A DNA stretch of 64,000 nucleotides from the NCBI GenBank assembly GCA_030834125.1, contig JAURFW010000009.1, forward strand, positions 1-64,000. Direction: 5' to 3'. Of the stretch, positions 34,641 to 37,028 are shown piece by piece (within the stretch, counting starts at the first letter, position 1; each line of letters starts with the position of its first letter). The notes below the pieces were generated by a model. It saw nothing but the letters and a program-made list of their open reading frames with translations, ran no database searches and was not told where the DNA came from. The translations under genes were made by a program, and so were the position numbers. The DNA comes from Bacteroidota bacterium. Lineage in GTDB: Bacteria; Bacteroidota; Bacteroidia; NS11-12g; UBA955.

Positions 34641-35369
34641 TTAATCTTTCTCAAAACCAACAGCAAAGTTAACGAATAGGGCGGGGAAGTTGAATCTGTT
34701 TAAACTTTCATTGTGTAATAATGGTATTTTACTCATAAATATGTCATTTGAAATACCCAGGCTTAGAGAATTTTTCAAGCTTCGATAACTACCCCATTCA
34801 ACAGTTAAAGCAGTAAAGCAACCAACACCCCAAATTAAATCTCCTTCTTTAAAACCTCGTGTAAATGAAGACGAACCTCCAATCAAATTGGGATCATGTA
34901 TTGAGGGATTGTATTGAACATTTGCATAACCATCAAATGGCGCACGACCTTGGTATAACCAAATATACACAGGCCAATAATACGCAGCATTAACAGAAGC
35001 CCCATAATCCAAAGAGCATGCAACTTGAAATCTAGATTTACGCTTCGAAAAGTAGATTGTTTTTTGAACAAATGGTCTTAAAGCCCATGTATAATTTGTT
35101 TTGTTAAGTTTAAAAGAGGAGCTACCGGGTAAACCAGCATTAATTACAGGAATTTCCTTAGGATGATTTATTGGGCCTAGTCTAATACCATAAGCAATTC
35201 CGAGGTTATCAAAATCGTTGGTTTTATATAAGCCCGCACCCACATCAAATCCAAAATTTCTAATCTGTGCGTCAATTTTTATAAAATTATTTACTTGAGA
35301 CTTGGTATTATCTGCTAAGAACAGAGATACAAGAACTAAACAATATGTGGACAACCTAAGGTCCTTCAT
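34641..35369 (-). CDS. Predicted outer-membrane beta-barrel protein of unknown function
   Basis: 242 residues with a signal peptide (core TYCLVLVSLFLADN, then TKSQ) and alternating hydrophobic and polar strands rich in Gly, Tyr and Phe (GFDVGAGLYKT, GIAYGIRLGP, LFVNFAVGFE), typical of small Bacteroidota outer-membrane barrels. No named family is recognised. It stands alone between lipA and mraZ. A consensus -7 element lies four bases before its ATG. Confidence 0.7.
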   Translation of the reverse strand: MKDLRLSTYCLVLVSLFLADNTKSQVNNFIKIDAQIRNFGFDVGAGLYKTNDFDNLGIAYGIRLGPINHPKEIPVINAGLPGSSSFKLNKTNYTWALRPFVQKTIYFSKRKSRFQVACSLDYGASVNAAYYWPVYIWLYQGRAPFDGYANVQYNPSIHDPNLIGGSSSFTRGFKEGDLIWGVGCFTALTVEWGSYRSLKNSLSLGISNDIFMSKIPLLHNESLNRFNFPALFVNFAVGFEKD

Positions 35370-35381: not shown

Positions 35382-35538
35382 CTTAAAACATCATACATAC
35401 ACATTTAGCAAAACCACTGAAAATTTACTCCACTTTCTCCCACTAACGTAAAAATGGCAAATTTCCAGGTATTTATAATTATCTTCGCGCACTATTTTTA
35501 CCCCAATTAAACAAAATGAAACCAGAACTTGCCATTAA

Positions 35539-35571
35539 TTGCACTTTGTGGAAAACAAGTGGTTAATTTTG
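35539..35571 (+). promoter_or_regulatory. Promoter of the mraZ/dcw operon
   Basis: TAATTTTG (35564-35571) is a perfect TAnnTTTG box. TTG at 35539-35541 lies 22 bases upstream and TTTG at 35545-35548 lies 15 bases upstream; either could serve as the -33 element. Transcription would begin near 35578, inside the MraZ repeats, leaving a leader of about 55 bases. Confidence 0.65.
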
Positions 35572-35599
35572 GGAAATTGTGGGAAATTGTGGGAAATTG
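35570..35599 (+). promoter_or_regulatory. MraZ box: three direct TGGGAAATTG repeats
   Basis: Three identical 10-base units in tandem begin at 35570, 35580 and 35590. TGGGN repeats separated by five bases are the described operator of the E. coli MraZ repressor, and mraZ itself starts at 35634. Weaker TGGT (35560) and TGGA (35549) continue the spacing upstream. The first repeat overlaps the last two bases of the -7 box, a position suited to repression. Confidence 0.85.
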
Positions 35600-35633
35600 T
35601 GTATTTATTTAGCAGACAGAAACTGGTTATCGT

Positions 35634-36107
35634 ATGCCTGGACTAATTGGAGAATACTACTGCAAGCTGGACACGAAAGGGCGCTTATCGCTTCCTTCCA
35701 AGTTGCGCGCGCAAATACCTGAAGCTGCAGGTAATGTTCTCGTGGTTAATCGTGGATTCGAGAAATGCCTAGTTCTGTACACCAAGGAAGATTGGTTGAA
35801 GGAAACTGAAAAACTAAATGCAGTTGATGACTTCATGAGCCCCGAGATTAGAAGATTCAAAAGAATTTTCACTAATGGCGCCAACCTGCTTTCTATTGAT
35901 AACGCTCAGCGTATTTTATTGCCTAAAAAACTAATGGAGTATGCAGACCTCAGCGATGAAGTTATTTTGAGTGCTTACGGAAGCAAAGTTGAAATTTGGA
36001 GTAAGTCATTGTATGATTCTGAGTTAGATGTAGAATCTACTGAACTTAGTGAATTAGCAAAGAATTTCCATCAACATAAAACATCTATTGGTGAACAGAA
36101 CGGTTAA
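35634..36107 (+). CDS. mraZ: Transcriptional regulator MraZ
   Basis: 157 residues with two AbrB-like MraZ/SpoVT repeats: LIGEYYCKLDTKGRLSLPSK (about 3-22), with the DTKGR motif, and LLSIDNAQRILLPKKLMEYA in the second half (the second motif reads NAQR). In other bacteria MraZ forms ring-shaped oligomers that bind TGGG repeats upstream of its own gene and repress the dcw operon. The operator described above lies just upstream. First gene of the cluster, 15 bases before rsmH. Confidence 0.95.
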   Translation: MPGLIGEYYCKLDTKGRLSLPSKLRAQIPEAAGNVLVVNRGFEKCLVLYTKEDWLKETEKLNAVDDFMSPEIRRFKRIFTNGANLLSIDNAQRILLPKKLMEYADLSDEVILSAYGSKVEIWSKSLYDSELDVESTELSELAKNFHQHKTSIGEQNG

Positions 36108-36122
36108 ACCGGACTGTTTGCA

Positions 36123-37028
36123 ATGGAGAATACTTACCACATACCGGTACTATTAACTGAGAGTGTAGATCATTTGGTGCATAATCCTGATGGAATTTAC
36201 CTAGATCTTACCTTTGGTGGTGGTGGCCACTCTAAATACCTACTATCCAAACTTAGTGAAAAAGGTAGATTATTCTCTTTTGACAAGGATAGACATGCAT
36301 TAGAAAACACAATAGATGACCAAAGATTCACACTGATTCACCATAATTTCAGATATGCTAAGCAATTTGTAACGTATTCTGTGGGTTTTGAAATAGATGG
36401 CATACTTGCCGATCTAGGGATTTCATCCTATCAAATAAACGAAAATGACCGTGGTTTTGCTCATAGAATGGATGGCCCTTTTGACATGCGTATGGATATT
36501 GACGCCAAAAAATCCGCAGCCGATATTATTAACGATTATACAGAAGCTGAACTTCTGAGAATTTTTAGGAGCTATGGTGAAATAAAAAATGCCTTTAAAC
36601 TAACTACAAGCATCATAAATACAAGACGGAATATTCCAATAAAAACAGTTGAAGATTTTAAAACTGCCATTAATAACTGCATTCCAAAATCGGAAAGTGC
36701 AAGATACTTGTCACAGGTATTCCAAGCCCTCCGAATTGAAGTGAATCAAGAATTGAAAGATCTCGAAATTTTACTCGCTGATGCTCCAGAAATTTTAAAA
36801 CCCGGCGGACGGATTTCAGTAATATCATATCATTCATTAGAAGACAGATTAGTAAAGAACTTCCTACAAACAGGTAATACGGAAGGACAATTAGTAAAGG
36901 ACTTTTTCGGAAATAGTATAACCCCATTTTCATCTGAATTTAAAAAACCCATAGTACCTGGTGAAAAAGAAATTACTAACAATCCAAGATCGAGAAGCGC
37001 GAAACTAAGAATTGGAATAAAGAAATAA
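36123..37028 (+). CDS. rsmH: 16S rRNA (cytosine-1402-N4)-methyltransferase
   Basis: 301 residues. AdoMet-dependent methylase of C1402 in the ribosomal P site. It starts YHIPVLLTESVDHL and shows LDLTFGGGGHSKYLL (motif I), GILADLGISSYQ (catalytic-region motif IV), GPFDMRMD and the C-terminal VISYHSLEDRLVKNF, all strongly conserved in RsmH. Normal length. Sits in its usual place between mraZ and ftsL. Confidence 0.96.
   Translation: MENTYHIPVLLTESVDHLVHNPDGIYLDLTFGGGGHSKYLLSKLSEKGRLFSFDKDRHALENTIDDQRFTLIHHNFRYAKQFVTYSVGFEIDGILADLGISSYQINENDRGFAHRMDGPFDMRMDIDAKKSAADIINDYTEAELLRIFRSYGEIKNAFKLTTSIINTRRNIPIKTVEDFKTAINNCIPKSESARYLSQVFQALRIEVNQELKDLEILLADAPEILKPGGRISVISYHSLEDRLVKNFLQTGNTEGQLVKDFFGNSITPFSSEFKKPIVPGEKEITNNPRSRSAKLRIGIKK

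Follow-up and report, generated by a model that had tools for sequence, protein, structure and literature searches.

A putative two-cluster MraZ operator around the promoter of the dcw operon in a clade of Bacteroidota

The region upstream of mraZ in the analyzed DNA (hereafter the window, i.e., the whole stretch of 64,000 nucleotides, positions 1 to 64,000 of contig JAURFW010000009.1 of the Bacteroidota assembly GCA_030834125.1) is probably an autoregulatory region of the dcw operon, in which MraZ would repress transcription from two operator clusters located around a promoter (promoter A), probably by looping, and would also block a second promoter (promoter C); the probability of this reading was estimated at approximately 0.6. 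According to the proposed mechanism, MraZ would bind a direct array of TGG(G) units, one unit per helical turn (35549-35599), before its own gene. In the layout that is usual for the class, such an array immediately precedes the -7 box and covers the spacer and the -33 region, and bound MraZ would thereby exclude RNA polymerase. In the window's clade, the operator appears to consist of two parts, the direct array and, at 35430-35443, an inverted pair, with the sigma-A promoter A between them and a changed box (box C) after the array. Both clusters are most likely occupied by ring-forming MraZ, which would keep promoter A repressed, probably through a small loop that joins the clusters; alternatively, MraZ may repress promoter A by blocking. 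Promoter C would be shut directly, with MraZ sitting on its -33 region.

The comparison covered the upstream regions of mraZ scored in 183 genomes, which comprised relatives from the order and the wider phylum and were divided into families f1-f41. Further loci were 80 named MAG or genome loci, the species of which partly overlapped with the 183, as well as E. coli K-12. The window belongs to family f1 and genus g1, and families f1-f12 make up the class. The window's clade (f1a) consists of eight genera of f1, with 40 genomes scored, and forms one side of a branch with a support of 100/99, genus g2 being its deepest branch. The units, the motifs of promoter A and box C, their spacing and the clade pattern are established by sequence comparison, and from these we infer MraZ binding, repression and the start sites.

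mraZ and the repeat array before it

The mraZ gene (35634..36107, + strand) is the first gene of the dcw operon, and its product matched the MraZ family above the cut-off of both models used (TIGR00242, E = 1e-32, 113 bits vs. 98.35; PF02381, E = 7.7e-25, 87.1 vs. 23). Two stretches matching PF02381 corresponded to the SpoVT/AbrB-like halves of the protein, arranged in tandem, and each half carried one of two invariant D-x-x-x-R motifs (D13-R17 and D89-R93); solved MraZ structures include 1n0e and the 9qlr/9qlg/9sx6 group. The gene is followed by rsmH (mraW; 36123..37028, + strand; TIGR00006, E = 3.3e-93), a small ftsL-sized ORF, a PBP transpeptidase gene in the ftsI position and mur-like genes. 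No ftsL family match was found for the small ORF, and the order rsmH, ftsL, ftsI, which marks mraZ as the first gene of the dcw cluster, was found with ftsL assigned by size and position.

It should be noted that a TIGR00242 match was absent from all eight genomes of family f25 in the phylum sample (G064, G096, G123, G138, G142, G150, G173 and G181), which suggests that MraZ was lost or strongly diverged in this family. In the MraZ tree, the MAG records L212, L202, L203, L205, L211 and L233, named Sphingomonadales, Chitinophaga pinensis or Chryseobacterium gleum, were placed within the window's Bacteroidota clade, and these record names look wrong.

Three exact copies of TGGGAAATTG start at 35570, 35580 and 35590, head to tail and directly 5' of mraZ, and form the core of the putative MraZ operator (35570..35599, + strand; read from the sequence and found by genome motif search). 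These copies with their 10-base spacing, as well as two weaker repeats, namely, TGGAAAACAA at 35549 and TGGTTAATTT at 35560, had been pointed out in the original prediction and are present as described, with unit steps of 11, 10, 10 and 10. The weaker unit at 35559..35569 (+ strand) reads GTGGTTAATTT, and its GTG-NTTAA was near-invariant in the clade alignment A2. Upstream of mraZ there are at least three TGGG-type direct units with a 10-bp period. The TGGGAAATTG 10-mer with one mismatch had an ordinary frequency in the window (14 occurrences vs. 8.9 expected). The strict spaced triple TGGGN6TGGGN6TGGG was found as a single exact site in the whole 2.3 Mb genome, and this site was the array upstream of mraZ; a search for a MraZ regulon across the same genome revealed no strict triple besides it, and such triples, when sought in 58 genomes of the order, either sat at mraZ or resembled chance matches.

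The arrays of E. coli (CAGTGGGAAATTGTGGGGCAAAGTGGG) and of the window (TGGGAAATTGTGGGAAATTGTGGG) matched nearly letter for letter. A TGG-type array with a 10-bp period upstream of mraZ passed the strict score in 165 of the 183 genomes; arrays of the same period precede mraZ in nearly all relatives and are kept across the class and beyond, and the strict-score misses within the order were limited to one genus (g13) with degenerate units. The assignment of the repeats to the MraZ operator of a Bacteroidota dcw operon, which had been made from the window, is supported by the near-identical array of E. coli and by the conservation in and beyond the class, and the repeats very likely represent the binding array of the operon's own regulator. 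In genus g13 (G025, G027, G031, G033, G036, G236 and G237), the array was decayed to TGTG/TGTC units and the box was shifted by approximately one unit; MraZ of this genus may recognise another core.

The sequence TGTGGAAAA (35547..35555, + strand; reverse complement TTTTCCACA) has two possible readings, namely, one more MraZ unit (the fifth) or an element that resembles a DnaA box. The pattern TGTGNAWAA was found in 38 of the 40 clade genomes (1.2 expected) and in 1 of 51 genomes outside the class, and related TTWTCMACA forms were present in the opposite orientation in sister lineages. The DnaA-type consensus was kept and the TGG core was lost in two lineages, namely, genus g2 (TGTGCAAAA) and G163 (TGTGCATAA). 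TTWTNCACA in either orientation was observed at the upstream edge of the array in the window, in L248, L273, L276 and L277 and in other loci; it was class-specific, and its orientation flipped between lineages. TTATCCACA was neither over-represented nor clustered in the window's genome, and 39 genomes of the order revealed no clusters or pairs of it, so that the DnaA reading is no more than a lead. In B. subtilis, DnaA was reported to bind the ftsL promoter (PMC8203912).

Inverted pair, promoter A and the distance between the clusters

The second cluster, which was missed in the original prediction, is a distal MraZ-type inverted pair (CCACTTTCTCCCAC, 35430..35443, - strand), the columns of which were invariant in alignment A2. 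On the minus strand it reads GTGGGAGAAAGTGG, i.e., two MraZ-type units one helical turn apart, and it is located directly upstream of promoter A. CCACN6CCAC was found in 40 of 40 clade genomes (0.2 expected) and in 11 of 141 other genomes; in the named loci, the inverted pair was at most 350 nt from mraZ in 38 of 38 cases, with 0 cases in the interval -1200..-350. With no more than two inverted units, the pair by itself may not be bound firmly. Inverted MraZ-type pairs were also detected outside the clade at about -154 from mraZ in L248, L276 and L277, at other distances and with a perfect TTATCCACA between the pair and the array; these are possibly independent two-cluster operators.

The usual sigma-A box TAnnTTTG holds in this genome, as follows from its density, which was three times higher in the intergenic than in the coding sequence of the window. 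The exact combination TTG-N18-21-TAnnTTTG was found in 29 of the 40 clade genomes (0.26 expected from shuffles) and in 0 of 84 other genomes of the class. The promoter A box is represented by TATTTTTG/TATATTTG in the relatives; in the window the promoter is degenerate, with a -7 box TATCTTCG (35480..35487, + strand; 5/6 to TAnnTTTG) located 41 nt from the inverted pair and no TTG at -33. In 35 of 35 genomes, the inverted pair and TAnnTT[TC]G were 40-41 nt apart; the corresponding distance was 21-22 nt in genus g2, the genomes of which have no canonical promoter A. The distance from box A to the last unit was 110-114 nt (121-124 nt in genus g2).

Between the inverted pair and the last direct unit, the distance was 151-155 bp (sd 0.69) in 35 genomes and 143-145 bp in genus g2, i.e., approximately one helical turn shorter, and each spacing shift of g2 was near a multiple of ten. 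From box A to the array, the sequence was unconserved (aligned identity of 0.37 vs. 0.32 for shuffled sequences). A protein bridge or helical phasing would lead to such a fixed length combined with a free sequence; common descent with few indels could also lead to it. Because all two-cluster genomes share one ancestor, these counts cannot be treated as independent, and the one-turn shift represents one event. A leader RNA structure, an Rfam family and an upstream ORF were considered as causes of the fixed length and were rejected, as searches of the leader region revealed no conserved RNA fold, no Rfam match and no conserved or shared upstream ORF. The DNA loop is the leading but unproven explanation, and it is proposed with less certainty than MraZ binding and repression. 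A more specific model, in which the MraZ ring would bridge the pair and the array across 143-155 bp with a conserved phase and trap the relocated sigma-A promoter, and in which the DnaA-box-like element could link the division genes to replication initiation, is put forward tentatively.

The two clusters may also act without a loop, the array serving as a roadblock in the transcribed leader and the pair independently repressing or activating promoter A from about -50 to -65. The direct array does lie downstream of promoter A; in B. cenocepacia and E. coli, too, the repeats come after the -10, where they overlap the start (PMC7761207), and the inverted pair occupies the usual site of upstream activators. 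However, separate action alone leaves unexplained both the constant box A-array distance of 110-114 bp with its unconserved sequence and the near-whole-turn shifts of genus g2, and we consider it rather unlikely.

Box C, the divergent neighbour and the start sites

In 74 genomes of the class (the window's own clade left out; a match being at least 5/6 to TAnnTTTG), a TAnnTTTG-type box was found 11-16 nt after the last unit in 62, whereas control windows of the same width gave 2-9 of 74; examples of this box are GTGGTAAAATTCTGTATATTTG (f6), GTGGGAAAGTTCTTTACTTTTG (f7) and TGGGATATTTCGTCATACTTTTG (f2). Outside the class, such a downstream box was found in only 4 of 51 genomes, and 36 of 51 had a sigma70-type TTGA...TAnnnT pair ending at most 20 nt from the first unit, so that the repeats follow the -10. 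The E. coli arrangement, with units directly downstream of the -10 and over the start site, is neither that of the class, where the box mostly follows the array, nor that of the window's clade, where promoter A lies 110-114 nt upstream of the last unit. Thus, in Bacteroidia the operator is located on the opposite side of the predicted core promoter element compared with the genomes outside the class.

At the place of the class-wide -7 box, 15 nt after the last TGG, the window carries box C (TTATTTAGCAG, 35605..35615, + strand), which is the candidate for promoter C. TTATTTAGCAG was invariant across the eight genera of the clade just 3' of the array, replacing TAnnTTTG. Since G032, a species outside the clade, carries the intermediate TATATTAGCAG at the same place, TTATTTAG was read as a changed -7 box. 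Box C may function as a -7 box for a sigma factor with an altered preference, comparable to SM5 (TAnnTTGY), an alternative -7 type described in F. psychrophilum (PMC9723704). The existence of such a type and the invariance of TTATTTAGCAG at the class-wide place would also agree with box C being the sole mraZ promoter, used by a sigma factor accepting TTATTTAG or the shifted TATTTAGC, with promoter A driving an unrelated short RNA. This is unlikely, given that most of the clade has a canonical promoter A, which is directed into the operon and is not separated from it by any conserved terminator-like fold, and that the genome contains just one exact site of TTATTTAGCAGAC, which hence represents no common promoter type.

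The role of the inverted pair could be different if it were the operator of the divergent gene (34641..35369, - strand), MraZ co-regulated and outside the mraZ switch. This gene encodes a 242-aa protein without a match in the family search and is kept in the clade except for genus g2; the pair points toward it, and a neighbour divergent to mraZ was present in every clade genome. In genus g2, however, the neighbour is another gene and the pair is nevertheless kept. Moreover, the distance from the pair to the neighbour anchor, which includes some coding length, varied by tens of bases, whereas the pair-array distance was steady, and beyond the pair, on its far side, no -7 box was found in a constant position. 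An operator belonging to the divergent gene is, accordingly, quite improbable, and the reading of the pair as a part of the mraZ switch was preferred.

By letter count, the best box match in the window was TAATTTTG (35564..35571, + strand), the final T and G of which indeed belong to the first TGGG as well, and which had been proposed as the -7 box. This sequence was found in 11 of the 40 clade genomes (9 perfect), all of genus g1, and, like promoter A of the window, has no TTG at -33 (none 19-21 nt upstream); the other genera of the clade mostly carry TAAAAAGGGG at this place. The overlap of TGGG repeats with TAnnTTTG was confined to part of genus g1 and is probably a genus-level coincidence. 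As a class-wide promoter, the TAATTTTG-type position was rejected, since the box follows the array in 62 of 74 class genomes. A start near 35578, covered by MraZ through the first repeat, is very unlikely, for although the window has a well-placed perfect TAnnTTTG, as do 9 of 40 clade genomes, and the layout would resemble that of E. coli with repeats after the -10, the box is limited to one genus, lacks the upstream TTG and is replaced in most other genera, while promoter A and box C are far more widely conserved. The class-wide box is located downstream of the array, and the canonical promoter of the clade lies approximately 110 nt upstream of the last unit; with the box placed at -12 to -5 (after PMC9723704), starts at approximately 35492 (promoter A) and/or 35617 (promoter C) are likelier.

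Significance and comparison with known systems

MraZ is among the most widely conserved bacterial regulators. Its ring offers many binding faces, yet three or four repeats are sufficient; if the proposed reading is true, two opposed operator clusters set in phase would put the surplus faces to use. At the boundary of Bacteroidia, a class in which a different box is recognised by the primary sigma factor, operator and promoter appear to change their order, and the array persists; a conserved regulator would have been kept through the rewiring of its promoter. No paper describing MraZ sites in Bacteroidota was found in the open literature, and with this region both looping by MraZ and the rewiring of the promoter across the class become open to direct testing.

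GalR, AraC and LacI are looping repressors, the two operator sites of which flank a promoter or lie near it, are separated by about 90-210 bp and are subject to a constraint on helical phase. The proposed two-cluster layout of the window would resemble this; however, those proteins belong to other families and use other types of operators, and the loop in the window is a proposed one.

MraZ is a ring-forming AbrB-like regulator, which binds repeats of this kind (PMC7761207, PMC8475190, PMC5282649). In Mollicutes, the MraZ site (AAAGTGKN3)3 is located in the mraZ promoter, and the protein is reported as an activator or a repressor depending on the species (PMC5282649, PMC8475190). As in the window, these are GTG-core direct repeats with a 10-bp period in the mraZ promoter, whereas the flanking bases are different and a second inverted cluster is absent from the descriptions in PMC5282649 and PMC8475190. 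In B. cenocepacia, 7-nt repeats with 3-nt spacers were found in the MraZ-bound fragment of PmraBc, and autoregulation was proposed (PMC7761207); this promoter differs from the window in that its repeats are located downstream of the -10 and overlap the start, with one cluster described (PMC7761207). In E. coli, MraZ represses its own operon according to the part of PMC7761207 that cites Eraso et al. 2014. The E. coli Pmra/mraZ1p region, like the window, has direct TGGG-type units with a 10-bp period just before mraZ, and the first units are identical in sequence. The units of Pmra follow the -10, whereas those of the class Bacteroidia precede the -7 box, and the window's clade adds to this arrangement an inverted pair and an upstream promoter.
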